Made by a program: the position numbers and the translations under genes. Below, in pieces: positions 31,343 through 45,135 of a stretch of DNA of 64,000 nt (the stretch's first letter is position 1; every line of letters starts with the position of its first letter). Source of the stretch: Flavipsychrobacter stenotrophus (GTDB lineage: Bacteria > Bacteroidota > Bacteroidia > Chitinophagales > Chitinophagaceae); NCBI RefSeq assembly GCF_002954265.1, contig NZ_PPSL01000003.1:558001-622000 (forward strand), read 5' to 3'. The notes beneath the pieces are model-generated. The model ran no database searches, was not told the DNA's origin, and saw nothing but the letters and a program-made list of their open reading frames with translations.

Positions 31343-31426
31343 GCCCAGGTGGCGAAATTGGTAGACGCACTGTGTTCAGGTCGCAGCGTCGGTAACGATG
31401 TGCTGGTTCGAATCCAGTCCTGGGCA
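31343..31426 (+). tRNA. tRNA-Leu (anticodon CAG)
   Basis: An 84-base gene with acceptor arms GCCCAGG / CCTGGGC. The D arm holds GGCGAAATTGGTAGACGC, the anticodon stem CTGTG/CGCAG has loop TTCAGGT (anticodon CAG at 31377-31379), and the T loop is GGTTCGAATCC after a long variable arm, as expected for leucine. The 3' CCA is not encoded. Its 3' end is the integration site of the island to the right. Confidence 0.96.
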
Positions 31427-31429
31427 CAA
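31415..31429. repeat. attL: 15-base core at the tRNA 3' end
   Basis: CAGTCCTGGGCACAA spans the last 12 bases of tRNA-Leu and is repeated exactly at 43971-43985. Confidence 0.85.
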
Positions 31430-31441
31430 CACTAAATCTTT

Positions 31442-31476
31442 AAACCCCTGTAAACAAAGCGTTTCAGGGGTTTTTT
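31442..31476 (+). terminator. Element-borne terminator for tRNA-Leu
   Basis: AAACCCCTG (31442-31450) and CAGGGGTTT (31465-31473) pair, with inner AAAC/GTTT, followed by a T6 run. It sits just inside the island and replaces the host terminator now stranded at 43984. Confidence 0.85.
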
Positions 31477-31484
31477 GTTTGAAC

Positions 31485-31616
31485 GTGTACCTGAATTGTA
31501 CCCAATCTCCTTTTTTATACTCCTTTTTACCTGTTTCTACTTTAGTAGATTTCGATTAAAATTTATCTTCAAAGAACTGTTTATAAGGCTTACTACAAAC
31601 TTACAACGTGTACCCA
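31485..31616. repeat. Left candidate integrase arm sites (GTACC repeats)
   Basis: GTACC at 31487 and 31498, 11 bases apart, and GTACCC at 31610. The same paired motif occurs at the right end. The remaining part of the 31430-31890 end region is AT-rich with no gene. Confidence 0.5.
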
Positions 31617-31890
31617 GATTTTACATGACATAGTATCAAATATTTTGATTATTTGGCTTTGCGTGATTTTCCACATTGGCAATTATGCTGGAATATGCAC
31701 GATTGAGTGTGCATTTATGGGCTATCGTGTAATCAATGGCAGTAGTTTGCAAAAGTAAACCTACTTGTAAGTTCCAGTAGGATGTTTGCAACCATATATA
31801 GCAGGAGTTTTAGCCTCATTAAGAATAGCTTTTGTGTTGTTGCTGGTATAGTTGTCGCTTAAACACTTTAAGTCGTTATTTGACCTTAAT

Positions 31891-32376
31891 TTACAGGCTA
31901 TTGCAAATAGTCTTCCCATTAAATTCAAGTAGCATTCTATTTTGTTCAAGGTATGTAAAAATATCCCACTCATTTTTAAACCTACCTTTTTGTTTATAAA
32001 CCCAGTCTTCAAATATCTGATCCATAAGTAAGTGCTTTTCAGCTATGTTGCAAACTTGCCTTATACCATTGGGCAAATCATCATACAGCATACTTCCATT
32101 GTATTCATTTAAAATATCAACGTGTAGCATTGGGAAATGAAGACTATACCAGTTTTCGTATTTGGGTTGATAGGACGGTTGTAATTCAGTTGTCAATTGC
32201 ATTATGCGTCCGTAACGTGTATCTATTGTACGGCAACGCTTATAATCATCGTATCTGTCGGTATTCCCCGAAGCCATGTTATGCAATATCCAACCTCCTT
32301 TTACCAAATCTTCACTTGCGTTTAAATGTTGGTAGAATTTATAGCGTATATCATTATTGCTTTTGTGCTGATTCAT
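31891..32376 (-). CDS. Hypothetical protein
   Basis: 161 residues, no signal peptide or TM segment. Notable for many Tyr, Asn and Trp residues (KYENWYSLHFPMLHVDILNEYNG, QIFEDWVYKQKGRFKNEWDIFTYLEQNRMLLEFNGK). No family recognised. It overlaps the upstream lipoprotein gene by 23 bases and is the last gene of the four-gene minus operon of the island. Confidence 0.6.
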   Translation of the reverse strand: MNQHKSNNDIRYKFYQHLNASEDLVKGGWILHNMASGNTDRYDDYKRCRTIDTRYGRIMQLTTELQPSYQPKYENWYSLHFPMLHVDILNEYNGSMLYDDLPNGIRQVCNIAEKHLLMDQIFEDWVYKQKGRFKNEWDIFTYLEQNRMLLEFNGKTICNSL

Positions 32377-32806
32377 CTTTTATGATTTTAGCACTATCTG
32401 CCTGCTTAATTAGTAGGTCTAAGTTTTCTGCTGTAAAAGGTACTGGTAGATTATTCCATGTTGGCGGCTTGGTTATGTATTCACCATTTTTTAAATCAAC
32501 TGAGTATACAGCCCAGCCCTTTCCTTCAAATTTTTTTATTTTCAAATATAGGATGCCCTCAGTTTCACCTCGTTTAACTGCGTGGCTTGATGTGTCTTTT
32601 AAATTGACCGACACTTCTACTTCATTGTTATTGTTTTCTGGAATATTATAGTTTACGGCATAAAACGAATTATTGCCCGCTGCAACATTTTTGAGTTCAC
32701 AAAATGTAACGAATTTCTCTGCTAATATCTTGATATCACCCGCATCATTTTTGCATGACGCTAATAATAGAGCACAGAATATCGCTGCTTGTTTAATGGA
32801 TTTCAT
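32354..32806 (-). CDS. Lipoprotein of unknown function
   Basis: 150 residues. The signal peptide ends in the lipobox CALLLASCKND. The mature domain is beta-rich (NNEVEVSVNLKDTSSHAVKRGETEGILYLKIKKFEGKGWAVYSVDLKNGEY) and could be a small Cu-free immunoglobulin-like or cystatin-like fold, but no family is recognised. Ends in a charged helix. It overlaps the next gene and follows the TM protein by 43 bases. Confidence 0.65.
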   Translation of the reverse strand: MKSIKQAAIFCALLLASCKNDAGDIKILAEKFVTFCELKNVAAGNNSFYAVNYNIPENNNNEVEVSVNLKDTSSHAVKRGETEGILYLKIKKFEGKGWAVYSVDLKNGEYITKPPTWNNLPVPFTAENLDLLIKQADSAKIIKDESAQKQ

Positions 32807-32849
32807 TGTGGTTTATTTAAACTTGATTTAAGTAAAAGATTTGCTATAA

Positions 32850-33575
32850 TTAATCACCTATTACACCGCCAAACCGCCACTGGAAATTTTCATATTCAAA
32901 ATACAAATCACCATATTCACCTTTACCAGTAACCCTTCCAACATGCCCCTTTTGCCATTCCTCATTTTTCATTTTGCCATTCAATGTTTTCTTGAAGTCC
33001 TGTAAGGTTGTGTCGTTAACAAATACGAGATTATTAAGCCATTCTTTAATTGTTTCCCCACCGCCACCATCAGAGAAATTTGGTGATGTTAAGCTGCTTA
33101 TTTTGGCTATGTTTTTTGAATTTACCGCATCCTTAAAGTCTACAAGGAAGGAGTTCCATTGTCCATCTGCATTATCGCTATTATCGACTGTTTTGGTGGA
33201 ATTTAAAGAGGGTGCTGGTATAATGGTATAATTAGCGGTATCAGCTGTTTGAACCTTTGCGTTAGCAGAACCTTTTATCATATAATATGCACCACCAGCT
33301 ATCAGGAAAATAACCCCCACAGCAATAATGATTGTAGGTATTCTTTTTACTGGCACTTCTTTATTTTTAATATTAGAGTCCCCAATAGGCTGTGCAGTTA
33401 AAAAAATTTGCTTGTCGCCATCCCTTACTTTGTACTTATCGAATACGCTCCTTATCAGTTCTACTTCATTTCCTTTGTATTTTAATATTAAGTCTGGTAT
33501 TGTGGTTAATCTTTCAGGGCTGTACTTCTCATAAACAGCACGTAATACCTGTTCTGCCTGTTTAGAGGTCATCAT
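32850..33575 (-). CDS. Single-span membrane protein of unknown function
   Basis: 241 residues. The N-terminal 75 residues (KQAEQVLRAVYEKYSPERLTTIPDLILKYKGNEVELIRSVFDKY) are cytosolic and helical. One TM helix (IPTIIIAVGVIFLIAGGAYYMI, about 79-100) is followed by a Ser/Thr/Asn-rich linker and a C-terminal domain (about 135-241) facing outward. The C-terminal part resembles a small NTF2- or DUF4878-like fold in general pattern only. It overlaps the small membrane gene upstream by 14 bases, so translation may be coupled. Confidence 0.6.
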   Translation of the reverse strand: MMTSKQAEQVLRAVYEKYSPERLTTIPDLILKYKGNEVELIRSVFDKYKVRDGDKQIFLTAQPIGDSNIKNKEVPVKRIPTIIIAVGVIFLIAGGAYYMIKGSANAKVQTADTANYTIIPAPSLNSTKTVDNSDNADGQWNSFLVDFKDAVNSKNIAKISSLTSPNFSDGGGGETIKEWLNNLVFVNDTTLQDFKKTLNGKMKNEEWQKGHVGRVTGKGEYGDLYFEYENFQWRFGGVIGD

Positions 33576-33789
33576 AATTTATGTTTTTTTGTTGTAAGAG
33601 AGAAAGTATTTGCTTCTTAAATTTTTCGTTTGCGATATCTTTTGAAAATGCTGTAAGGATAAGACCACACAACGGAGAGAGCAGTAATGATGCGAATAGC
33701 GCACCCAAAAACCCAATTTCTCTTTTAGTACCAGCAACACCAATTACTACGCTTACAACAAGCCATAGGGGGATGATTATTAATTCCAT
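33562..33789 (-). CDS. Small two-helix membrane protein
   Basis: 75 residues from ATG at 33789 (MELIIIPLWLVVSVVIGVAG). Two TM helices (about 2-19 and 27-47) flank a KREIG loop; the tail FKKQILSLLQQKNINYDDL is cytosolic. A longer reading from TTG at 33846 starts within the palindromic operator and is rejected. First gene of the four-gene minus operon divergent from the XRE regulator. Confidence 0.6.
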   Translation of the reverse strand: MELIIIPLWLVVSVVIGVAGTKREIGFLGALFASLLLSPLCGLILTAFSKDIANEKFKKQILSLLQQKNINYDDL

Positions 33790-33826
33790 ATCCTGATTTA
33801 TGTTTAAAATCTTACACAATATAAAA

Positions 33827-33845
33827 TGCTTAGCATTGCTAAGCA
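33827..33845. promoter_or_regulatory. Palindromic operator in the divergent promoter region
   Basis: TGCTTAGC-ATT-GCTAAGCA, a perfect dyad with 8-base arms and a 3-base centre. It lies 38 bases upstream of the membrane operon ATG (33789) and 35 bases upstream of the XRE regulator ATG (33880), the expected place for autoregulation. Confidence 0.65.
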
Positions 33846-33879
33846 AGATAAATTTTAGTATTCGCTTCTTTGCTATGAA

Positions 33880-34140
33880 ATGGGTAAGGCGAAGAAATCA
33901 TTTTTTGAAATTGCAGTAGCTGACAAAGTTGCTGAAATTCGCCGTGCAAAGGGTCTTTCTCAAAGCGACCTCGCAACCATTCTTGATGTTACACGTGGGT
34001 TTATCGGTCAAGTCGAAACTCCGAGTAGTAGGAGTGCATATAGCGTAGATCATCTAAATCGCCTTGCATACGACTTAGGGTGTTCAGTTCATGACTTATT
34101 ACCTGCTGATCCAATTGTTGAAAGTAGCTGGGATAAATAG
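33880..34140 (+). CDS. XRE-family helix-turn-helix regulator
   Basis: 86 residues. The Cro/cI-like domain is VAEIRRAKGLSQSDLATILDVTRGFIGQVETPSSRSAYSVDHLNRLAYDLGCSVHDLL (about 15-72); the recognition helix is TRGFIGQVE. Short, so it is a DNA-binding protein without effector domain. It faces the four-gene membrane operon across the perfect dyad at 33827 and precedes the large nuclease-like gene by 74 bases. Probable repressor of the divergent operon, of itself and perhaps of the module to its right. Confidence 0.9.
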   Translation: MGKAKKSFFEIAVADKVAEIRRAKGLSQSDLATILDVTRGFIGQVETPSSRSAYSVDHLNRLAYDLGCSVHDLLPADPIVESSWDK

Positions 34141-34214
34141 CTGCATAGGTACGTTTGAGTTTAATTGTGGTTGCAATAAATATTCTATCTTGTAGGTATT
34201 AACCTATAATAACG

Positions 34215-36740
34215 ATGCTCCCCGACGAACTACAACAACAAATTCGATTTAATATTGCGCAACTTTCAGCCAAAAACGGTCAAGCAGATTTCGAAAAAAT
34301 CTGTTTATACTTTTCCAGAAAACGAATACATACTAACATTTTACCTGCAACTGGTCCTGTTCAAGCAGGTGGAGACCAAGGCAGGGATTTTGAAACATTT
34401 CATTCCTACGTATCAATTTTACCAATTGCAAACTCTTTGTTCATTGGCAATTTTTCGGTTTACCCAGTGGCGTTTGCATGTTCTTTAGAAAAAGACCCTG
34501 CAAGGAAAAAGGGTAAAATATATCAAGATGTTCAATCAATTCTAAAATCTGGAAGTAAGGTTGAGCGCATATATTTTTTTAGCGGGGAAGACATTCCGGT
34601 AGCTAAGCGGCACAAGTCCGAAAATGAAGTTAAGAGTGTCTTTGGTGTTGAATTACAAATTATAGATGCTCAAACACTTTCACAGCACCTTGCAGATGGG
34701 GATTTGTTTTGGATAGCAATACAATATTTGAAAATGCCTTCTGAAGCATACCCAGTTGTTTCAGAAGATTGGTATGCAGAATTATTGAAAGAATATAAAG
34801 AAGGTAGTAACAGGATAGATACTATCGGGGAATTTTGTGAGATTAAGGGAGCGGTAAGACACATTTATAAAAACAACGACCTAAAAAAAGATTTACTGTT
34901 TTGGTTGCCTAAACTCGATATTTTTATAAATACGCATGACACAAATAGGTTTTTAATCAGAAAAGCTATTTATGAAAAATTTGTTGCATCATTAATTGGC
35001 TTAGATAATGTTTCTGGACAAGAAACAAATATCGAAAATTACTTTTCGGATTTTGAAGAATGTGATTCTATTGCGGAATTAACCGATGCGCAATTGTTAT
35101 TGTCATTTTGCACCGTTTCTTGTCTGAAGAACAGACATAATGTATCTATAGAATATTTTAAATCTATTGCGAATAAATTTGAAAAGCTATTACTCACCAA
35201 AATAAACACTACACAAAATATTGATATAAAAGTTGCATTAATAGATATTCATGCAAATCTTATATTCCATGATGTACTCTCTGATGCTAACACTCGTGTG
35301 CAGATGTTTGCAAACAGGATGAATAGCGTTATTAAGTTATTACCACGTACGCACTTTTACGGAATTAGTGCGCTTGCAAACAGAATAAATGAATTTATAG
35401 AGATACTACTCCGTAATAAAATTGACGCATCTGAATTAGAGAAAATAGCTGGCAAAATTGATACACTATTAGCCAAGCAAGGTGGACGAAATATTGTTGC
35501 TGATAAGCTCAAAACCAGAGCTATAACTTATTTGAATAATAATGAGCTTTTTAAGGCAATTGATTGTTTGCATGAATTGAAAATTAAATGGTTTAACGAG
35601 GAGTCAATTCAAGAAAGTATACAAGCATGTTTACTTTTGGCTAAGGCTTATCAGAAATTGAATCTTTTCTACGCCTCAAAGTACTATGCGTTAATTGCGT
35701 CGTATTTATCTATGAAGGACAATATGATAGAGTGCTATACTTACTTTTTAGAGGGATTATCTCTGGCTTGTGAGAATGAGTATAAGACAGGTTCTTGGTT
35801 AAATTATATTAATCTTTTGGATGGACTTATTGCCACACATTATGCTATGACAAAGGACTTTACTGTATATAATCATGACGATGTGCATAAAATAATCTAC
35901 TACCCTGCGATAATTAAAAATGTTTCAATAGCACTTTTCCCTAACATTCTGCCACTGCTTGATAAGAGATACAGTAACTGGGAAGACATAAAAAATGAAA
36001 TAGATGAGTTGAGTGTAAAGATGCCTAAAATAAAAAGAGAAGACATTTTGGACACTGCAAGTAAGCAGCTATATGGTAATATATTTAACGACCTCGGAGA
36101 GATAAGAACAATTGGGTTTAATGCTTTAGGTTCGAATTGGCAGTTTCATTTTAATAACGATTATGAAACTAATAGTGTTGCGGAGGAGTTCATTTCTAAA
36201 TTTCAAATTCTGATAGTTGATATAAAGGATTTGGGGATATGCCTACTTTCCACAAATGTGAGGATAAACATATCATTATCTACAGCTGCTAAACCATCGT
36301 ATAAAAATTCGGGAAATGACGATGAAATTACTTGGGATATTATGCTACCTCCCTATAACGGTGATACGAAAAAGGAATTAGAACACCATCAATTTGAAAG
36401 TTTAGTTGTTGCTCAAGCTATAATATACGATGTTTCATTACTGCCTGGAGAGCAATATATAAGATTGATAGGAGAGAGACTAAAGGGAGAAAATGGAATA
36501 ATTAATAAACTAATATTTGGCAGGCACTATGCAGACTTGTACCATAATTTTGTTTCTAAGACAGAATTTAATTCGCAGAACAGAACTACTCTTAGGAATG
36601 ACATATACAAGGATGGTTTCTCAATACGTTCTAATGATAAACTACCTTGGGATAATTCAATTGCGCCTAATTACAACAAAAAAAAATCCCTGAAAAACAT
36701 CGAAACACGTATTACTGTTTTTAAAAAAATTTGTCTATAA
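34215..36740 (+). CDS. Large protein with nuclease-like N-terminus, frameshifted at A7 near its 3' end
   Basis: 841 residues before a stop at 36738. The N-terminal block FEKICLYFSRKRIHTNILPATGPVQAGGDQGRDFETFHSYV resembles the Mrr/PD-(D/E)xK-like N-termini of restriction-type proteins: the GGDQGRDFET stretch would supply the Asp, and later Glu/Lys residues (SLEKDPARKKGKIYQDV) complete a possible site. The middle (about 250-560) is helical, TPR-like (CLHELKIKWFNEESIQ, LLLAKAYQKLNLFYASKYYALIAS). The C-terminus runs on in the -1 frame at A7 (36723-36729) into the next ORF, ITVFKKNLSITLPLLNKSS, giving a full-length protein of about 979 residues. Candidate nuclease effector of a defence system, together with the helicase downstream. 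Confidence 0.7.
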   Translation: MLPDELQQQIRFNIAQLSAKNGQADFEKICLYFSRKRIHTNILPATGPVQAGGDQGRDFETFHSYVSILPIANSLFIGNFSVYPVAFACSLEKDPARKKGKIYQDVQSILKSGSKVERIYFFSGEDIPVAKRHKSENEVKSVFGVELQIIDAQTLSQHLADGDLFWIAIQYLKMPSEAYPVVSEDWYAELLKEYKEGSNRIDTIGEFCEIKGAVRHIYKNNDLKKDLLFWLPKLDIFINTHDTNRFLIRKAIYEKFVASLIGLDNVSGQETNIENYFSDFEECDSIAELTDAQLLLSFCTVSCLKNRHNVSIEYFKSIANKFEKLLLTKINTTQNIDIKVALIDIHANLIFHDVLSDANTRVQMFANRMNSVIKLLPRTHFYGISALANRINEFIEILLRNKIDASELEKIAGKIDTLLAKQGGRNIVADKLKTRAITYLNNNELFKAIDCLHELKIKWFNEESIQESIQACLLLAKAYQKLNLFYASKYYALIASYLSMKDNMIECYTYFLEGLSLACENEYKTGSWLNYINLLDGLIATHYAMTKDFTVYNHDDVHKIIYYPAIIKNVSIALFPNILPLLDKRYSNWEDIKNEIDELSVKMPKIKREDILDTASKQLYGNIFNDLGEIRTIGFNALGSNWQFHFNNDYETNSVAEEFISKFQILIVDIKDLGICLLSTNVRINISLSTAAKPSYKNSGNDDEITWDIMLPPYNGDTKKELEHHQFESLVVAQAIIYDVSLLPGEQYIRLIGERLKGENGIINKLIFGRHYADLYHNFVSKTEFNSQNRTTLRNDIYKDGFSIRSNDKLPWDNSIAPNYNKKKSLKNIETRITVFKKICL

Positions 36741-37144
36741 CACTCCCTTTATTAAACAAGTCTTCAACGTTTATTCATACTGTAAACACCATTAGGCAAG
36801 AAGGGTGGCTGGACTGGCATATTTTACATGCTATTACAATGGTAGTTATAAACCATAAACTACAATCCTATTATTCTCGATGTAGCTCTATCGACGAAGT
36901 AAAAGACATAGCGGATGAAAAATTTAAAGAAGATGAAAAGAATTGGTACGAACTTATACCTGAAGAAATATTGAATGAGGAACGCTTACTTCAGGAATTG
37001 AATATAATGATGCCGATTACTTTTTTGCCTGCATTTGGTCTAACATACAAATCTGAAATACCCAACGGCAAAGCCATTTTACAACTGATAAAAGAAAAAT
37101 ATAACTTCTTTGAAGATGGTAAAGACATTCTTATCTTCTCTTAA
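36731..37144 (+). CDS. Frameshifted C-terminal part of the nuclease-like protein
   Basis: 137 codons from a nominal TTG at 36731, but more likely the continuation of the preceding ORF. In the -1 frame the A7 tract gives FKKNLSITLPLLNKSSTF, and then IRQEGWLDWHILHAITMVVINHKL, a compact helical end. The last part ends DGKDILIFS. No separate start codon fits: the upstream -1 frame contains a TAA 7 bases before the A7. The helicase gene starts 65 bases after its stop. Confidence 0.6.
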   Translation: MSITLPLLNKSSTFIHTVNTIRQEGWLDWHILHAITMVVINHKLQSYYSRCSSIDEVKDIADEKFKEDEKNWYELIPEEILNEERLLQELNIMMPITFLPAFGLTYKSEIPNGKAILQLIKEKYNFFEDGKDILIFS

Positions 37145-37186
37145 ATTAATATAGGTTAAATATTTGGCATCAATATTGCATTCCGC

Positions 37187-37207
37187 TATGTAACACACTA
37201 TTACATA
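37187..37207. promoter_or_regulatory. Dyad just upstream of the helicase ATG
   Basis: TATGTAA-CACACTA-TTACATA, 7-base arms with a 7-base spacer, ends 2 bases before the ATG at 37210. Possible operator or translational control element. Confidence 0.35.
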
Positions 37208-37209
37208 CT

Positions 37210-38664
37210 ATGGGCAATGAATTGAGACCTTACCAAGTGCAAGGAATTAATAGAATATTTGATTCTTGGAGAAATAATAATAGAAGCGTTTTATTCCAAA
37301 TGCCCACTGGAACGGGCAAAACGGTATTGTTCTCAGAAATTGTAAAACGTGGTTATGAACAAAATCGAAAAGTTCTGATAGTTGTCCATAGGATTGAACT
37401 TGTGGAGCAAATTGGTTCCAAATTACAAGAAATGAATGTAAAGGTTGGCTACATAATTTCGGGTAAGCCTGCCGATCCTTCATGCATTGTGCAAGTAGCC
37501 AGTGTGCAAACACTACTTAATAGAGAATACCCTGAAGCTAACCTTATTGTTATAGACGAATGCCACCATGCAAAAGCAGAAAGCTATACTAAGCTATGGG
37601 CTATTTATCCTGACGCAAAATTTTTAGGCGTAACTGCAACGCCTGTTCGTCTTAGTGGGGAAGGGTTTGATGATTGCTTTGATGATTTAATTGTTTCTAT
37701 GTCAGTGCAAGAATTTATCAAGCAAGGGTATCTGGTTCCTGTTTCTCATTTTGTTGGGGGAAGCCCTGATTTGGCAGGAGTGAAAGAACGACAAGGAGAT
37801 TATGTTACAAAAGTGCTCTCCCAAGTAATGATGGATAATTCTGTAATGACTAACCTAATTGATAGTTATCTGCAGAAAGCAAATGGAAAATCTACAATAG
37901 TTTTTGCTGTTGATGTTGAGCATAGTAAAGAAATTGTGGAACGATATAAGGCGGCTGGTGTTGTTGCTGTCCACATTGATGCGAAGACTCCAACAGAAGA
38001 GAGAAAGAAAATATTATTGGATTTTAAAGAGAAGAAAATACAAGTCATCAGTAATGTTGAAATTATTACCGAAGGTTTCGACTTTCCAGAATGTGAAGCA
38101 ATTCAGTTAGCACGTCCTACCAAATCACTATCCTTATATCTTCAAATGGTTGGGCGAGTTATGCGTACGGCAAAAAATAAAACGCAAGGACTTGTTTTGG
38201 ATAATGCAAGCTTATGGCTTGAACATGGACTTACCAATATTGAAAGACAATGGTCACTAAAAGGAAGGGCAAAAAACAAAAAAAGTAATGATGAAAATAG
38301 AGAGATTGGAATTGATAATGACGGCATAATTAGAATAATTTCAAGGAATAGGCCGATGGAGGTGCAAGGATTAGAACTTTATTCGCTTACTGAAGAATTT
38401 GAACGCTTATTGGATTTTGAAGCCCACTTGATAACTGCGATAGAAAAAAAGCACAAGTTAGTTTCTGCATATTTGAGATACATGACTAATTTAGAGAAGA
38501 AGGGAGTGATTATTACGGAAGAAGAATTCACCTATATACAAAAAAGACTTGACAGGCATAACACATCTAAGGAAGTTGAGGATGCGTACAAATATCACCC
38601 ATCATATTGGCACTGGCGTAAAAAAGAATTAGCTGAAAGGAATCTAATTATTTTTAGAAAGTGA
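37210..38664 (+). CDS. RadD-like DEAD/DECH superfamily 2 helicase
   Basis: 484 residues. Motif Ia region starts LRPYQVQGINRIFDSW; Walker A is MPTGTGKT (about 31-38), motif II is VIDECHHAKAESY (DECH), motif III is GVTATPVRLSGEG, and motif VI is QMVGRVMRTA near residue 310. Two RecA lobes with a C-terminal extension of about 150 residues; the overall layout resembles RadD. It should use ATP to translocate on or unwind nucleic acid. Its pairing with a nuclease-like protein in an island is the usual configuration of restriction or phage-defence modules; the substrate is not known. Confidence 0.9.
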   Translation: MGNELRPYQVQGINRIFDSWRNNNRSVLFQMPTGTGKTVLFSEIVKRGYEQNRKVLIVVHRIELVEQIGSKLQEMNVKVGYIISGKPADPSCIVQVASVQTLLNREYPEANLIVIDECHHAKAESYTKLWAIYPDAKFLGVTATPVRLSGEGFDDCFDDLIVSMSVQEFIKQGYLVPVSHFVGGSPDLAGVKERQGDYVTKVLSQVMMDNSVMTNLIDSYLQKANGKSTIVFAVDVEHSKEIVERYKAAGVVAVHIDAKTPTEERKKILLDFKEKKIQVISNVEIITEGFDFPECEAIQLARPTKSLSLYLQMVGRVMRTAKNKTQGLVLDNASLWLEHGLTNIERQWSLKGRAKNKKSNDENREIGIDNDGIIRIISRNRPMEVQGLELYSLTEEFERLLDFEAHLITAIEKKHKLVSAYLRYMTNLEKKGVIITEEEFTYIQKRLDRHNTSKEVEDAYKYHPSYWHWRKKELAERNLIIFRK

Positions 38665-38674
38665 TATTTACATT

Positions 38675-38682
38675 TATTTTTG
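38675..38682 (+). promoter_or_regulatory. Possible -7 element of the 64-residue gene
   Basis: TATTTTTG fits TAnnTTTG and is 15 bases before the ATG at 38697. The -33 region is weak. Confidence 0.3.
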
Positions 38683-38696
38683 CTCTGTAGACTATA

Positions 38697-38891
38697 ATGA
38701 CACAAAACGATATCACACGGAAAACAGAAGAGCAAATATTGATTGATACAAATACAGATGATGCAATTATAGCAGAGTTACTTGAAGAAGACGCTGACCC
38801 AACGACCAAATTGCCTTATAGCAAAGCATTTATTAAAAAACACAAATTAGCAAAGGCTATTCATAATGTGACAGGCAAGCTTCTTTATTAG
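38697..38891 (+). CDS. Small acidic/Lys-rich protein
   Basis: 64 residues, MTQNDITRKTEEQILIDTN, then AIIAELLEEDADPTTKLPYSKAFIKKHKLAKAIHNVTGKLLY. An acidic N-terminal half and a basic C-terminal half; no TM segment. Unknown family. It lies 32 bases after the helicase stop on the same strand and may be an accessory or inhibitor of the module, but only context supports this. Confidence 0.55.
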   Translation: MTQNDITRKTEEQILIDTNTDDAIIAELLEEDADPTTKLPYSKAFIKKHKLAKAIHNVTGKLLY

Positions 38892-38894
38892 GCA

Positions 38895-39374
38895 TTAATA
38901 AAATAGCTGTTCAGAGCCTTTAATAATTGCTGTCGCAATGCTGTCCTGTAAATAATCTATCGGGCTGTATGATAGCCCAAAAGCGACGTGCATAACACTT
39001 TGGGAAGCTACCACGCAACCCCTACCTTCTCCAAGCCTTTGTACAAGTTCTTTTTTACAAGATTTTGTAAATTCATTTGCATATAGTGTTCTGGGTAGTG
39101 ATAAATCGCATATTAATCCATCAACTTCTACCCATGCATGTCCAGCCCACAATTGGAGTATATTATCTCGCACTTCTGAAATGCTAAAGTCCTGTTGGAA
39201 AATTATTTGTTCTTTATAAGAGAGGTTGCCAGTTACAAGTTTAGCATCGACATTATGTTCATTTTTTAGTTTTGCATACAATGTAGCCGACATAGGTAAA
39301 CATAAAAATGGTTTACTGGGAACAGTCAATAGAACCGCTTGCACGGCATTTATTAGTACTTCCTTTGTAATCAT
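38895..39374 (-). CDS. Transglutaminase-like cysteine domain protein, putative
   Basis: 159 residues. FLCLPMSATLYAKLKNEHNVDAKLV, then AGHAWVEVDGLICDLSL fits the Cys ... His-Ala-Trp-Val-Glu ... Asp pattern of transglutaminase-fold enzymes such as those of the PF13471 type: Cys (residue 24), His of GHAWVE and Asp of ICDLS would form the triad. A protease, cyclase or amidase function is possible. There is no signal peptide. It converges with the 64-residue gene (3 bases apart) and lies 8 bases after the zinc-ribbon gene. Confidence 0.5.
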   Translation of the reverse strand: MITKEVLINAVQAVLLTVPSKPFLCLPMSATLYAKLKNEHNVDAKLVTGNLSYKEQIIFQQDFSISEVRDNILQLWAGHAWVEVDGLICDLSLPRTLYANEFTKSCKKELVQRLGEGRGCVVASQSVMHVAFGLSYSPIDYLQDSIATAIIKGSEQLFY

Positions 39375-39382
39375 TTTAGCGA

Positions 39383-39622
39383 TTATTTTTTAGGCAAATT
39401 TTGCTCGGTTAGTGCTTTGCCACATTTTGGACAAGTAATATTCATTTTCACAAATACTTCATTCCACCCTAAATTTTGAGTTGTTGAAAATGATTCTCCT
39501 TTTAAATCTTGTAGTGAATATTGTTCCCAATTCGACGAATAGGGCTGGTCATTTTCTTTAATGGATATTTCACCAATATGGCCGCATTCACAAACGACTT
39601 TATAGTTTATTCTGGTTGACAT
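39383..39622 (-). CDS. Small zinc-ribbon protein
   Basis: 79 residues with two Cys pairs, VVCECGH near residue 9 and ITCPKCGK near 66, spaced as in a zinc ribbon. The loop between is polar and Trp/Tyr-rich (YSSNWEQYSLQDLKGES). Unknown role, perhaps nucleic-acid binding. It sits 8 bases upstream of the transglutaminase-like gene on the same strand. Confidence 0.6.
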   Translation of the reverse strand: MSTRINYKVVCECGHIGEISIKENDQPYSSNWEQYSLQDLKGESFSTTQNLGWNEVFVKMNITCPKCGKALTEQNLPKK

Positions 39623-39652
39623 AACATTTTTTTTGGGAGTTTCTAAAATATA

Positions 39653-39958
39653 TCATTTAGCATACGCTTTGCCTGGGATAGCTACATACTTTCCTTGTTC
39701 AAAACCTACTGCAAAACATCTTTCCAATGTCGCACCGTGTTTTTTTACTGCTGCGTCTAAATCTATTTTAGCTTGCTCAGGTGTAGTATCTATTTTCACA
39801 AGTGACGTGTTAGGTAAGTAATGAACCGCATTAGTACTGTCCCCACTTTTTGTAAAGTGATCAAGATAGCCATTCGCTTTCATAGTTTCTTTCACTTGAG
39901 TTTGCTTAGCTTCCTTATGTATATTTTCAACTATGTCGTAAGTGATTAGTGTATTCAT
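39653..39958 (-). CDS. Small ferredoxin-like protein, possibly SinR/Cas2-related
   Basis: 101 residues from ATG 39958 (MNTLITYDIV); a longer reading starts upstream at 39991. Predicted layout: strand TLITYDI, helix QTQVKETMKANGYLDHF, strand VHYLPNTSLVKI, helix TPEQAKIDLDAAVKKHGATLERCF, strand AVGF. This beta-alpha-beta-beta-alpha-beta order and the small size recall Cas2/VapD/SinR-type proteins. No CRISPR repeats or other cas genes are near, so it is not a CRISPR component. Function unknown. Confidence 0.5.
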   Translation of the reverse strand: MNTLITYDIVENIHKEAKQTQVKETMKANGYLDHFTKSGDSTNAVHYLPNTSLVKIDTTPEQAKIDLDAAVKKHGATLERCFAVGFEQGKYVAIPGKAYAK

Positions 39959-40536
39959 GACTCTCTGTCTTTTATTAATAGACAATAACAAATTGCAATA
40001 TTAATGCCGAGTGATCAATTGGACTTTTTGACTAATTACATATGTCCATTTTGGCAGTTTATTAACAAATCGCTTATGAAGTTGGAATTTATATGACAAA
40101 ATGCCTTAAATTTTCGGGTTGAGATATTTTCATTGTACCGTTGAATTTTTACCAGTCGTATTAGAGAATTTAAGGCTCATAATCGACCTTCTAATATTAT
40201 TTTGGCAGTAGTATAGGGATGGAGAGTGCTAACGTCGTTAAGTAGGCTTAATTCGGGCAAAGAAAAAGCAGGTAAAAATTCCAACGTAGCTATCGGAGTG
40301 CAATTGACTACGGCTAATGGTTTTCTCACCTGCTATTGCTATAAAGAGTTAAAACTTGAAAGAGGTTTGTAGTTCTCTTATTCGCTCGCTATATAACAGA
40401 ACAAAGATAGCAAATCCAAGGGTCTTAACAGAGATTCAATTCCTATTATTTATTAACCATGGTGCAGAAATATATTTTTGATTTTTCGATGTTGCCACGT
40501 ATTTTTCGCGCCACTTTTTACTATAATTAAATATGC
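39959..40536. other. Noncoding segment of the island with nested inverted repeats
   Basis: About 580 bases without a supported ORF. AGCAGGT (40267-40273) pairs with ACCTGCT (40328-40334), and CGTAG (40285) pairs with CTACG (40308) inside it, so a nested stem-loop RNA or DNA structure is possible. It is flanked by the 18-bp inverted repeat. Confidence 0.4.
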
Positions 40537-40609
40537 AGCTTGCAGTCTTGCAGTAGGGGCGTTTCCCTTTACAGTAAAGGATTCCAGACTAACTGCAAGA
40601 CTGCAAGCT
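40537..40609. repeat. Perfect 18-bp inverted repeat with nested hairpin
   Basis: Arms AGCTTGCAGTCTTGCAGT (40537-40554) and its exact complement (40592-40609) enclose a 37-base loop that itself contains CCTTTA-CAG-TAAAGG. It is 18 bases beyond the DUF3987 stop. Could be an origin or a transcription/plasmid-like control site. Confidence 0.75.
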
Positions 40610-40627
40610 ATTAATTAGCATAAGAGG

Positions 40628-42211
40628 TCACTGTTGTTCATAGCATCGTTCATACTGCCCTTTTTCGACGCATTTGATTAAATCGCATTTCAGATAGTAG
40701 TAAACAGTTCTTTCTGATAACCCCAGCAATCTTCCAACTTTTAGCGCATCCCGAGTTGTAAATATAGCTGGCAGCTTATTGTGAAATTTTTCAAACCTTG
40801 GGTCGTAATGCTTAATAGATACTTTCTTCGGCACTAATCCCATAATCCTGTTTGCTCTATTTCTAAAATATTCAGTAATGCTTATGGCATCAATGACGTG
40901 TTGTTTTGTTACAATGATTTGCATATCATCTTTCATGAGTATTTTAACATGCTTATATGCATAGTCAAGCATTGCCACTATTATAATAAAACGTAGTAGA
41001 TACAACTCCAGTTTGTTGTATATCCCTATCATTTGCTGGTCGTTCAAGCTATTGCAGTAGTCTGAATTTTCATTCTGCCACCGTATTAGTTCCTGAAAGG
41101 CATCTTTTGTAAAATTCAATATATGGGGGTTAATTTCGCCGTCTTTGTTATACCGAGAAGGTACGTTTATGATGTTCTTTATAATTGCATGATACTGTTC
41201 TTCAAGTTTGTCATTTGGCATCAAGCCATTCCATTTTCGCTGGGGTACGGTATCCGTGGTTGCGAATAGCAACCGATCCAAATAGCCATTATTGTCGTTT
41301 AAATTTGAGATGAATTTTATTAACACGTCTGTTTGAATAGTTCCCGCATTGTTTAAAAATGGTTGTAGAATCCAAGGACTCGATTTCTTCTTTCTGTCTA
41401 CTTTTATTGGTTTCCCGCTCCACATTGTAAGGTGGGTTTGCATGTCATCTCCAGCTCCACCACGGTATTTATTCATTGAATTTAAAAATGATAAATATTC
41501 ATCTGCATAAAGGGTCAGACCAGCTTTATTCTCGACAAGGACGTCTTTTATAGCTTCCATCGTAGCGTCGTTTATCATACACCTTTTGCAGGTAGGTTCA
41601 ATCAAATTTTCGTTCCCTTCATGCTTTAGTTTTTTATATTCCGTATAAGCTATTTTGTATTCTCGTTCGTATGCCAGCTCCTGTGCAAATAATGGAGATA
41701 AAGCTCTTTCCAGTGGACCCGATTTATTGATGCTCGAACGCCCAACAATTAGCATGCTCAATATGGCAGTAGATTTGAGTTTGCCTTTAAATAAAATCTG
41801 GAAATTGTTACGAATAGCTCCGGCAACAGCCGATAATATGCCTGCTGCATAATATTCCTTTGGAAAGTTTAAGGTGTTGCTTACGTCATTGATGTGTCTC
41901 CTAATAGGATCAGGAAATACCTCTATGGGAAAAGGATTGCTGTACTGATTTAAATGGTCCTCTAATTGTAAATTTTTGCTATTACGCCGTGATTCTTTGT
42001 ACGCTTCTAACTGATTCTCGGGAATCAATTCTTCATCGAAGATTATTTGGTTTGCCTCTACATTTTCCAGTATGTCTGGGTTTGCTGGATAGTCATCTTC
42101 TTCAAAAGGCAGGTAAGGTTTCTCTTTTAGTGCTTCCCTTAATCGAAGGGCTTTGGCAATGTTTTTTTCTTCCATTCTCTCTGCATCAGTTTTATAAGTT
42201 GCTTGTATCAT
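40628..42211 (-). CDS. DUF3987 domain protein
   Basis: 527 residues. After about 80 residues of disordered start, the DUF3987 core includes FPKEYYAAGILSAVAGAIRNNFQILF, LIVGRSSINKSGPLERAL (nucleotide-binding loop position) and TLYADEYLSFLNSMNKYRGG (Walker B-like Asp-Glu). A C-terminal helix-turn-helix-like end reads LGLSERTVYYYLKCDLIKC. These proteins, of unproven function but possibly replication helicase/primase-related, are frequent in Bacteroidota integrative elements. Overlaps the excisionase-like gene by 4 bases (ATGA), so translation is coupled. The inverted repeat lies downstream of its stop. Confidence 0.85.
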   Translation of the reverse strand: MIQATYKTDAERMEEKNIAKALRLREALKEKPYLPFEEDDYPANPDILENVEANQIIFDEELIPENQLEAYKESRRNSKNLQLEDHLNQYSNPFPIEVFPDPIRRHINDVSNTLNFPKEYYAAGILSAVAGAIRNNFQILFKGKLKSTAILSMLIVGRSSINKSGPLERALSPLFAQELAYEREYKIAYTEYKKLKHEGNENLIEPTCKRCMINDATMEAIKDVLVENKAGLTLYADEYLSFLNSMNKYRGGAGDDMQTHLTMWSGKPIKVDRKKKSSPWILQPFLNNAGTIQTDVLIKFISNLNDNNGYLDRLLFATTDTVPQRKWNGLMPNDKLEEQYHAIIKNIINVPSRYNKDGEINPHILNFTKDAFQELIRWQNENSDYCNSLNDQQMIGIYNKLELYLLRFIIIVAMLDYAYKHVKILMKDDMQIIVTKQHVIDAISITEYFRNRANRIMGLVPKKVSIKHYDPRFEKFHNKLPAIFTTRDALKVGRLLGLSERTVYYYLKCDLIKCVEKGQYERCYEQQ

Positions 42212-42492
42212 TTTTTCTTGTTTTTAGGGAGGTTAACAAAATTTGATGCTTTCATCGACTCTTCAATCTGCGCCCACGTCAGTTGAGTGCGGCTGAACAT
42301 CCACTCATCAATTTCAGATTTCTCAAAACGCAGCTTGCTGCCAATAGCAGATCGGTGTACAGGGATTTTTTTGTAATGCACCAGCTTGTATAAATACTTT
42401 ACTGTAAGGTTTGTGTAAACAGACACTTCCTTTATCGACATGGGGACGAGCTCCCTATTTTGGTCGATTTTTTCGCGAATTTTTTCAGTCAT
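42208..42492 (-). CDS. Excisionase-like helix-turn-helix protein
   Basis: 94 residues. The middle, SIKEVSVYTNLTVKYLYKLVHYKKIPVHRSAIGSKLRFEKSEIDEWMF, is a winged-helix MerR/Xis-type DNA-binding domain of the kind used as excisionase or island regulator. It overlaps the DUF3987 start by 4 bases and lies 236 bases from the integrase stop. Expected to bind near the attachment sites and bias excision or control replication. Confidence 0.8.
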   Translation of the reverse strand: MTEKIREKIDQNRELVPMSIKEVSVYTNLTVKYLYKLVHYKKIPVHRSAIGSKLRFEKSEIDEWMFSRTQLTWAQIEESMKASNFVNLPKNKKK

Positions 42493-42668
42493 TTTATATT
42501 GTTTACCTACACAATAACGCTTTGCCCCTCAAAAATTTTGAGCATTAATTTTCATTTGATATGTTCAAATGTTGTATTCCTAATCGATTGATTTCACCTG
42601 CCAGTGTTTATACTTTTTAACTTGACTATTTTTATTGTTCAATTTGATTATTTTTTCACATTAATAAA

Positions 42669-42707
42669 AAGTGAGTAAAGCACCTATTTTTAGTACTTTA
42701 CTCACTT
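42669..42707 (-). terminator. Integrase terminator
   Basis: AAGTGAGTAAAG (42669-42680) and CTTTACTCACTT (42696-42707) pair perfectly over 12 bp; read on the minus strand it is followed by TTTTTATTAA. Confidence 0.85.
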
Positions 42708-42728
42708 CCAGATTTTTAAAATCTTGCC

Positions 42729-43772
42729 TTACAAAAGCGGAATTTTGGAGATAGCACTTTTTAAATTGAAATCTGCACGCTTGGTGTAGTTGCGCAAATG
42801 TTTTGTCGATGTTTGCCCCAAGACTTTAGATATAGCAGTGTCATTCACACCGAGAGCAATGAGTAGGCAAGCCATCGTATGCCTGCCGCAGTGCCATGTT
42901 ATTTTCTTATCAATACCAGCCTTTAATACCCATCCCTTCAGTACTTTGTTGCATCCATTAAGTGTGGTTGGCAAATCAAAAATTAGTTGTTGTGGATCAC
43001 GAGCTATGCCCATAAAGAACAATGCATTATCATGGAGATCAAACTCAACCTTAAATTTTGTCTTCGCTTGTACCATAGTTAGCTTTCCATCGCTAATGTG
43101 CTGCCACTGTAGCCGAGATACATCACAATAACGCAGCCCCGTAAAGCAACAAAACAGAAACGCTCGCTTCACACCATCATTGCTACACTCGAAATCTGTT
43201 AGCAATCTTAACTCGTCCATTGTGAGAACATTTTTGGTTATTCCTTCCAGCCGTTTTATTTTAATGTCTGCCGCTGGGTTGGTATCGAACAGCCTATCTT
43301 TTGTTGCATAATGTAATACTCTACTTAGTAGCTTGAAATAGTTGTGTGGCGTTTCGCCTGTAAGATGATTTTCTAAAAAGCTTTTAAATTTTTCTAAAAA
43401 ACTTTCGTCAATGGATGTAATGGGCAACTGCTCTTTTTTATGGAAGGCTTTTAATTTTTTCAGAACTGATACCGCACGACGCTCGCGTGTTGGATACGTT
43501 ATAAAGTGCTCTTCGAAATATTTGAAAAAATCAGTTTTTTGCCTGTTGGCAGGAAGTGGAATATAGCCTTGCAGTAATTTTGCTTCTAACTTATTGCGAC
43601 GTATTTCAAACCGCATTAGAGTGTCTTTATTTAGTTGCTTAGTTGCGTCATCTGTTGCATAGTAAAGATGTAAGTCTGTCGATTCTACATAACGAACACC
43701 GTTTACTCGATAATCAAAACAAAGAGCAATGCCCTTTTTCCCTTTTCTTTCTTTCTTAATTACGTGGATCAT
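42729..43772 (-). CDS. Tyrosine recombinase / integrase
   Basis: 347 residues. An N-terminal arm-binding part (MIHVIKKERKGKKGIALCFDYRVNG), a core-binding SAM-like domain (about 105-190, FLEKFKSFLENHLTGE) and the catalytic domain: Arg in CFTGLRYCDVSRLQW, His-x-x-Arg in WHCGRHTMACLL, and the nucleophilic Tyr in TKHLRNYTKRAD. Related to phage-type integrases used by Bacteroidota elements. It should recombine the 15-base core at the tRNA-Leu end. Located 199 bases from the right att copy, reading away from it. Confidence 0.93.
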   Translation of the reverse strand: MIHVIKKERKGKKGIALCFDYRVNGVRYVESTDLHLYYATDDATKQLNKDTLMRFEIRRNKLEAKLLQGYIPLPANRQKTDFFKYFEEHFITYPTRERRAVSVLKKLKAFHKKEQLPITSIDESFLEKFKSFLENHLTGETPHNYFKLLSRVLHYATKDRLFDTNPAADIKIKRLEGITKNVLTMDELRLLTDFECSNDGVKRAFLFCCFTGLRYCDVSRLQWQHISDGKLTMVQAKTKFKVEFDLHDNALFFMGIARDPQQLIFDLPTTLNGCNKVLKGWVLKAGIDKKITWHCGRHTMACLLIALGVNDTAISKVLGQTSTKHLRNYTKRADFNLKSAISKIPLL

Positions 43773-43842
43773 TAGCTATTATTTTTTAGTTAGCAATCCC
43801 TATAAATAACGCTTTGACTATAAAAGATTCTAATCGTAATAT

Positions 43843-43862
43843 GTGTACCCATTTTGTACCCA
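43843..43862. repeat. Right candidate integrase arm sites
   Basis: GTACCC at 43845-43850 and 43856-43861, 11 bases apart, same orientation and spacing as the pair at 31487/31498. Confidence 0.5.
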
Positions 43863-43970
43863 CTTTGGAGTAGAATAAGGTAAAATGGGGTAAAAGAAAA
43901 GAAAAATAATTTTGACCTTTTTGTATATGCTGTTAGAGATTTACGGTTAGTTAGTATTCCCCGAAAGTTG

Positions 43971-43985
43971 CAGTCCTGGGCACAA
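43971..43985. repeat. attR: 15-base core
   Basis: CAGTCCTGGGCACAA, identical to the tRNA 3' end copy at 31415. Confidence 0.85.
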
Positions 43986-45026: not shown

Positions 45027-45057
45027 AGCGAAGCAACGGTGGTTGCTTCGCTTTTTT
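45027..45057 (+). terminator. Cyclophilin gene terminator
   Basis: AGCGAAGCAAC / GTTGCTTCGCT with a GGTG loop, then T6. The T-run is the first part of the interspersed repeat at 45052. Confidence 0.9.
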
Positions 45058-45115
45058 GTCGCAAGCGGGACGCTTGCATGGTGTAGGACGAAGCGGGACG
45101 CTTCGACCAGTGAAG
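45052..45115. repeat. Double-hairpin interspersed repeat, copy 1
   Basis: A 64-base unit with two hairpins of identical loop: GCAAGC-GGGAC-GCTTGC, then CGAAGC-GGGAC-GCTTCG after an ATGGTGTAGGA spacer. An identical copy is at 46513-46576. Confidence 0.85.
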
Positions 45116-45135
45116 GAATAATAAAATTGAGAGCA

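Follow-up and report, generated by a model that had tools for sequence, protein, structure and literature searches.

Genes of the locus and the break in the large gene

We analysed a 64,000-nucleotide stretch of the Flavipsychrobacter stenotrophus genome (contig NZ_PPSL01000003.1; hereafter the window), in which four genes lie on the plus strand within positions 33880-38891. In order, they encode an XRE-type regulator, a large protein bearing the motif GGDQGRDFET, a DECH helicase and a 64-residue product (Table 1), and the gaps between them measure 74, 65 and 32 nucleotides (nt). An initial annotation had proposed that these genes make up a single undescribed defence module on a mobile island. 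The genes are real and collinear, as described there, but they do not form a single conserved module. The large gene, whose relatives are found on plasmids, proviruses and prophage remnants, is the subject of this report.

The same annotation read 34215-37144 as one protein, which does not hold. Two open reading frames (ORFs) in different frames occupy this span (34215-36740 and 36731-37144), overlapping by 10 nt, and the break falls within an A-rich tract near 36.72-36.74 kb. The GGDQGRDFET motif corresponds to residues 52-61 of the large ORF. In the best relative, L002 from Mucilaginibacter pineti, a single ORF of 976 amino acids (aa) aligns with both pieces, at 42% and 34% identity. Among the nine fetched relatives of the same subfamily (subfamily I, below), eight are single ORFs (L002 and L004-L010; 965-1031 aa where the coding sequence is annotated or listed), while L003 is split, but at a different place from the window copy. 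Because the intact subfamily I relatives each form one ORF, we take the window gene to carry a frame break, for which decay, assembly error, slippage or translational coupling may account. The relatives L003, L020, L043 (genome G484) and L077 are also split, stopped or fragmentary, which might mean that the intact protein is costly or that ordinary decay is at work.

Table 1 Features of the locus and of the integrative element that carries it (window coordinates).
Feature	Positions	Strand	Evidence or remarks
attL, left end of element	31415-31429	+	3' end of tRNA-Leu(CAG) gene; CAGTCCTGGGCACAA direct repeat; empty site
Four small ORFs (161, 150, 241, 94 aa), divergent from XRE gene	31891-33846	-	ORF list
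XRE/Cro-type HTH protein, 86 aa, 74-nt gap to large gene	33880-34140	+	HTH_3 E 4e-5
Large protein, first piece, 841 aa	34215-36740	+	Residues 1-~175, predicted Mrr-like nuclease; ~205-605, TPR-like solenoid; also an alpha/beta region
Large protein, last piece, 137 aa, other frame	36731-37144	+	Matches residues 841-975 of single-ORF L002
Superfamily 2 (SF2) DECH helicase, 484 aa	37210-38664	+	ResIII E 5.5e-31; Helicase_C E 5.4e-19; phrog_16 E 4.7e-99
64-aa ORF	38697-38891	+	ORF list
159-aa protein, possible cysteine-protease or transglutaminase cargo	38895-39374	-	Weak transglutaminase-like match, PF13471 E 0.0064
DUF3987 replication-type protein	40628-42211	-	PF13148 E 1e-45; phrog_2373 E 2.6e-37
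HTH_17 excisionase-like protein	42208-42492	-	Pfam E 1e-9; phrog_66 E 3.4e-6
Tyrosine integrase	42729-43772	-	phrog_1 E 7e-31
attR, right end of element	43971-43985	+	Second CAGTCCTGGGCACAA copy; near tyrosine integrase gene

Different N-terminal domains on one C-region

With the window protein as tblastn query, 21 of 72,556 plasmid records match, nine of them covering at least 80% of the query in one place; identities run from 21 to 29% in the 20 rows listed, and 18 of the 21 records were fetched for analysis. A scan of genome contigs returned one relative, L002. Viral contigs yielded 12 loci when scanned with a subfamily profile and none when the window protein or alignment A2 served as query, and tblastn of the window protein against the phage collection gave no match. 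The protein of L032, from subfamily III, matches one phage record and 16 plasmid records. Within the family, relatives are confined to the genome of F. stenotrophus itself (one of 394 genomes); at the level of the phylum they occur in four of 395 genomes, this one included, and one of the four matches only at E 6.6e-4. In Escherichia coli, a subfamily III gene is present in 26 of 5,426 complete genomes and is covered to at least 80% in 23. Three of these copies were inspected: two lie amid prophage-remnant genes and the third, split in two, lies between integrase genes. WP_039268304 is an intact, prophage-remnant copy.

Comparison of all relatives among themselves by blastp resolves three subfamilies. 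Subfamily I (the window protein, L002 and L003-L010) joins a GGD-type N-terminal domain to the C-region. Subfamily II (L011-L013) carries the C-region of subfamily I behind a different, Cap4-type N-terminal domain, and subfamily III (L014-L020, L028-L039 and L044), seen on plasmids, in proviruses and in E. coli genomes, joins the GGD-type domain to a diverged C-region. Window residues 186-839 match the subfamily II proteins at E 6e-57 (L011), 6e-44 (L013) and 1e-35 (L012). The Cap4 nuclease family (PF14130) is matched above its cut-off by L012 (E 4.9e-8) and below threshold by L013 (2.2e-5); L011, itself unmatched, shows homology to L012 along its full length (blastp E 5e-148).

In a 14-row tree of the C-region, the four rows of Cap4 type cluster together (100/99) next to the window protein and L002 (97/96), so that a single exchange of nuclease suffices to explain them. 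The tree has long end branches and five rows of odd letter make-up and is rooted at the midpoint only, and the Cap4 label of L043 is a by-eye resemblance of its N-terminus to those of L012 and L013. This exchange on a common C-region is the best evidence that the family consists of effector-plus-sensor proteins.

Predicted nuclease domain and solenoid

The first ~175 residues likely form a divergent, Mrr-like PD-(D/E)XK nuclease domain, judging from alignments and structural models. Residues F26, E27, T46, G47, P48, G52, G53, D54, D58, E60, K101, D105 and D151 are invariant in all 13 aligned sequences (alignment A3), and a second set of ten rows (A6) departs from them only at position 27, with Q for E in L029, and at position 60, with Q for E in L030, L032 and L033. 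The FE helix and the GxD strand can accordingly be followed through both sets, with F26, D54 and D58 in all 13 + 10 rows and E27 in 13 of 13 and nine of ten.

An AlphaFold2 model built on A6 has a mean predicted local distance difference test (pLDDT) score of 75.6, and the order of its elements fits the PD-(D/E)XK core: two helices (3-15, 23-37), two strands (61-63, 85-90) and then, alternating, helix 101-111, strand 118-123, helix 129-143 and strand 146-150. The full-length L002 model adds a short strand at 42-44. The best Foldseek matches of this domain are EcoT38I (E 0.011), BspD6I, Mus81, FokI and Hef; the top matches are largely restriction-endonuclease-like, with other folds intermixed from rank 3. 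Aligned by hhalign with a Mrr_cat set of 13 domains, collected by searching 60 genomes of the family, the domain scores 14.2 globally against a shuffle maximum of 6.2, and 19.5 locally against 16.2 (40 column shuffles); FE, GxD and K are in register in the global alignment.

Pfam gave no match to PF04471 (Mrr_cat) in the window protein or L002 and none to PF14130 in the window protein, a profile of the N-terminal domain found two chance-level matches (E 0.17 and 0.47) among PDB chain sequences, and hhalign against the three Cap4-type N-terminal rows found nothing. In PADLOC-DB 2.0.0, the pieces of the window protein have no match at E <= 1; at E <= 0.5 there is none for L005 and L006 or for five of the six group III proteins, and the one match of L018 is to a TPR model (E 0.05). 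The nuclease assignment of the initial annotation gains from the order of elements in the model, the restriction-endonuclease-like Foldseek matches and the Cap4-bearing sister group, although no Foldseek match reaches E 1e-3 and the TM-scores are low.

The TPR element, also part of that annotation, is borne out at the level of prediction. In the full-length L002 model the C-region contains a predicted TPR-like solenoid of helical pairs, which extend over residues ~205-605 and match the TPR domain of LGN/Pins (Foldseek E 1.1e-5, TMq 0.22); the mean pLDDT is 58.7, but values reach ~70-88 over most of residues 271-530. Pfam detects neither a TPR nor a STAND NTPase family in the large protein.

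Carriage on a tRNA-Leu integrative element

ARAGORN and Rfam place a tRNA-Leu(CAG) gene at 31343-31427, and a direct-repeat search finds two copies of the 15-bp attachment (att) repeat CAGTCCTGGGCACAA, one at each end of the element (Table 1). G166, a congener, has one copy of CAGTCCTGGGCACAA at which the left flank, tRNA-Leu gene included, joins the right flank. Since the flanks meet there at a single repeat copy, forming an empty site, the element extends over 31430-43985 (12,556 bp). Integrase, att repeat and empty site, which together mark a tRNA integrative element, are all present, and the G+C content in 2-kb steps is 33-37% within the element against ~42-52% over 10 kb of either flank. 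The mobile island proposed initially is thereby confirmed and given its boundaries. In two further congeners, G775 and G262, other DNA (~0.7 and ~2.4 kb, respectively) separates the same tRNA-Leu gene from sequence of the same right flank; given the ~2.4 kb in G262 (G262:C41, L052), the site may serve other insertions.

The element ORFs scanned, which do not include the 94-aa ORF at 33562-33846, gave no confident match to any relaxase, capsid or terminase family. The DUF3987 protein has matches at E <= 1e-60 in two of 149 genomes of the order, its own included. The 161-, 150- and 241-aa ORFs gave no convincing family match, and inspection by eye suggests a likely membrane helix in the 241-aa product. 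The 38895-39374 protein also matches lasso_biosyn_B2 under the cut-off (E 6.3e-4) and has a single plasmid relative, in Vibrio (34% identity). Just outside the element, at 45040-45130, lies a dispersed repeat, REP-like in appearance, that forms a hairpin of ~60 nt; it has 37 matches in its own genome, itself among them, and numerous matches in congeners, and equal or better folding was seen in one of 200 shuffles.

Neighbouring genes in the window and around relatives

We compared 15 element proteins by tblastn (E <= 1e-3) with 33 relative loci (L002-L020, L028-L039, L043 and L044). Neither the helicase nor the 64-aa protein has a relative at any of the 33, and, apart from the large protein itself, the sole match is to the XRE protein, in L010 (E 7e-4), ~4 kb from the large gene and within a HipA-type pair. 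The loci include near copies (L032-L034, L036 and L038) and short flanks (L002, L031, L032 and L037), so the number of independent cases is below 33; subfamilies I and II contribute 13 of the loci. The proposed four-gene module is rejected on this co-occurrence, one of the two grounds for refutation that the initial annotation itself named (the other, a large protein with no nuclease fold, is not what the searches showed), and the helicase should not be assumed as a partner when the large gene is cloned.

The helicase is of a phage type and probably a separate cargo or replication gene, apart from the nuclease system. Matches to it at E <= 1e-5 occur in 2,933 of 50,697 phage records and 579 of 72,556 plasmids. 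Among 294 family genomes, one besides its own has a match at E <= 1e-60, and there the other element proteins, the nuclease included, were not found in the surrounding 19.5 kb. The initial label, RadD-like, is right as to a DECH helicase of SF2 and a match to RadD (E 6.6e-51), but that match reaches 173 bits against a cut-off of 720 and covers only residues 4-334, and the protein is best seen as a phage or plasmid type. The 64-aa ORF had no match in Pfam, PADLOC, NCBIfam, PHROGs or the other searches run. Both are best read as separate element genes (replication or cargo) and not as subunits. The regulator call was sound, with HTH_3 just above its cut-off (24 against 23 bits) and a match to a PADLOC restriction-modification control protein (E 3.8e-9); its position in the window, the sole evidence, makes it a possible regulator of the large gene.

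The context of relatives was read from the annotation of 18 plasmid loci, the ORFs of L002 and L042-L044, and five provirus loci. Defence-type neighbours comprise Shedu (PF14082, E 2.5e-28) at L006, DarT with a macro protein at L009, AbiE and CBASS genes at L011, AbiE at L002 (from a reading of its ORFs), a SAVED protein (CBASS) at L020, ABC-3C genes with a reverse transcriptase at L008, and a SIR2-like protein at the provirus L030. In the provirus L028 the relative is accompanied by terminase gpA and primase-type genes, and at L032 an integrase gene adjoins the relative. A Ser/Thr kinase homologue adjoins the large gene at L004, L005 and L028 and, weakly, at L016; since this amounts to four of 33 loci, we regard it as an association rather than a rule. 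The kinases at L004:6440-7837, L005:6713-7870 and L028:11368-12807 (minus strand) are homologous, with alignments that span most of the L028 protein (480 aa), and the genes they adjoin belong to subfamilies I and III.

Proposed function and alternatives

On balance, we favour the reading that the large gene specifies a self-contained, modular nuclease-sensor protein with a putative role in defence, carried as cargo of the integrative element. It would encode, or would have encoded before the frame was broken, a protein whose N-terminal ~175 residues form the Mrr-like PD-(D/E)XK nuclease and whose remaining ~800 residues, the TPR-like solenoid and the C-terminal alpha/beta region, act as sensor and switch. 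The solenoid would keep the nuclease inactive until an infection cue binds the solenoid or the C-region; the nuclease, thus freed or multimerised, would cut DNA, and either the invading phage would be stopped or the infected cell killed. Of this reading, homology, domain architecture, the exchange of nucleases on one C-region and a mobile location (integrative element, plasmids, proviruses) are shown, whereas catalysis, DNA as the target, autoinhibition, the trigger and anti-phage protection are inferred. The XRE protein plausibly holds expression low. We propose a stand-alone, autoinhibited protein because the exchange of effectors fits sensing by the C-region and killing by the N-terminal domain.

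A broader proposal is put forward tentatively, at slightly less than an even chance: that these proteins constitute an unnamed family of stand-alone phage-defence proteins in which a conserved TPR-type sensor is combined with exchangeable nucleases, either divergent Mrr-like GGDxGxD or Cap4-type, taking in Bacteroidota, actinobacterial and alphaproteobacterial plasmids and, in E. coli, prophages, with some lineages placed under a neighbouring Ser/Thr kinase. The exchange of nucleases on a conserved region of ~650-800 aa offers a natural experiment, in which the shared part should sense and the exchanged part kill, and the E. coli prophage-remnant relatives make the family testable by an ordinary K-12 plaque assay.

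Several observations weigh against a nuclease with a defensive role. The (D/E/Q)-x-K expected on the third strand is replaced by S/T-x-x-K/R in group I and by S-x-K/R/Q in group III, and the lysine after that strand varies (L006 has R there, and L030, L032 and L033 have Q or R); because it is not invariant, a textbook (D/E)-x-K site is disfavoured, while K101 and D105 are invariant in these same sequences. Residues 46-60 and 63-82, the GGD-motif loop included, have pLDDT below 50, so the active site is poorly placed in the model. All Foldseek E-values for the N-terminal domain exceed 1e-3, with query TM-scores of 0.17-0.43 over the top 50, and hhalign's own probability for Mrr_cat is 2%. No model in Pfam, PADLOC, NCBIfam or PHROGs recognises the large protein as a nuclease or defence protein. 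The window copy is frame-broken. Finally, the known-defence-type genes lie near seven loci, a count that has no background control, nothing obviously of this type is seen near L003, L015 and L017, and L004 is almost unannotated.

That all four genes work together as one nuclease-helicase system is very unlikely. Nuclease-helicase pairs are common in defence, and the shared strand and short gaps would permit co-transcription, but the helicase and the 64-aa protein have no tblastn match at any of the 33 relative loci, where the XRE protein has its one weak match, the helicase matches the phage DNA helicase family phrog_16, and its sole other close match within the family stands without the nuclease. 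A role in the service of the element itself, in stability or in exclusion of competing plasmids, satellites or helper phages, with anti-phage defence incidental, seems improbable, if somewhat less so. It would fit the location of most relatives on plasmids, proviruses, prophage remnants or the integrative element, as well as the DUF3987 protein and phage-type helicase carried here with no relaxase or capsid family among the scanned ORFs. Against it stand the several kinds of defence-type neighbours around some relatives; such elements carry much defence anyway, however, and the two readings overlap. The apparent location is moreover biased, because the deepest searches were of collections made up solely of plasmids or viral contigs; the G484 copy (L043) is on a chromosome contig, and L002 lies on an unplaced contig of 6 kb.

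A separate matter, compatible with a nuclease-sensor protein for the family as a whole, is whether the window gene is a dead remnant that has lost its last ~137 residues in a decaying locus. We regard this as a serious prospect, though somewhat short of even. Two ORFs stand here where L002 has one, and other copies are broken: L003, the G484 copy with its internal stop, L020, which is in pieces, and the split copy of E. coli NWU_3. Yet the 841 codons upstream of the break are open and 42% identical to L002, and the A-rich tract allows assembly error, slippage or, given the 10-nt overlap, coupling instead.

Comparison with known systems

The N-terminal domain, as modelled and aligned, shares with Mrr_cat (PF04471) the order FE helix, GD..G.D strand, a strand followed by Lys, helix, strand, helix and final strand. 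It differs in having no Pfam match, in its altered Q/E-x-K site (S/T-x-x-K/R or S-x-K/R/Q), in the additional invariant TGP and D151, and in its fusion to a TPR-like solenoid. With the Cap4 (PF14130) and LmuA (Lamassu) nucleases the link runs through subfamily II, where a Cap4-type domain occupies the same place on the same C-region; the window protein bears the GGDxGxD domain instead. Unlike the Cap4 and Lamassu systems, L011-L013 have no matched SAVED domain, nor does the annotation around them show an SMC-type partner. Avs proteins pair an N-terminal restriction-type nuclease with a TPR-like sensor, much as the large protein would, and Avs4 (PDB 8dgf) is a weak Foldseek match of the N-terminal domain (E 0.43); in contrast to Avs proteins, the large protein has no STAND NTPase family in Pfam scans.

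Validated E. coli defence systems with PD-(D/E)XK domains are described in Vassallo 2022 (PMC9519451), and 13 of 31 further validated systems have such domains according to DefensePredictor 2026 (PMC13092281), where TPR is defined in the legend to Fig. 4. From these single-gene or small E. coli systems the present proteins differ in that their C-region is a predicted TPR-like solenoid. Searches of open-licence PMC papers, as far as their text was covered, by term and by accession, returned no paper describing the family. The locus was initially called undescribed, which agrees with Pfam, PADLOC 2023, PHROGs and NCBIfam as scanned, but an E. coli relative such as WP_039268304 may already be among the systems recently validated or tested. 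In its predicted architecture, the large protein is of a known kind, the nuclease-plus-sensor defence proteins, and represents a family of that kind that is itself unnamed.

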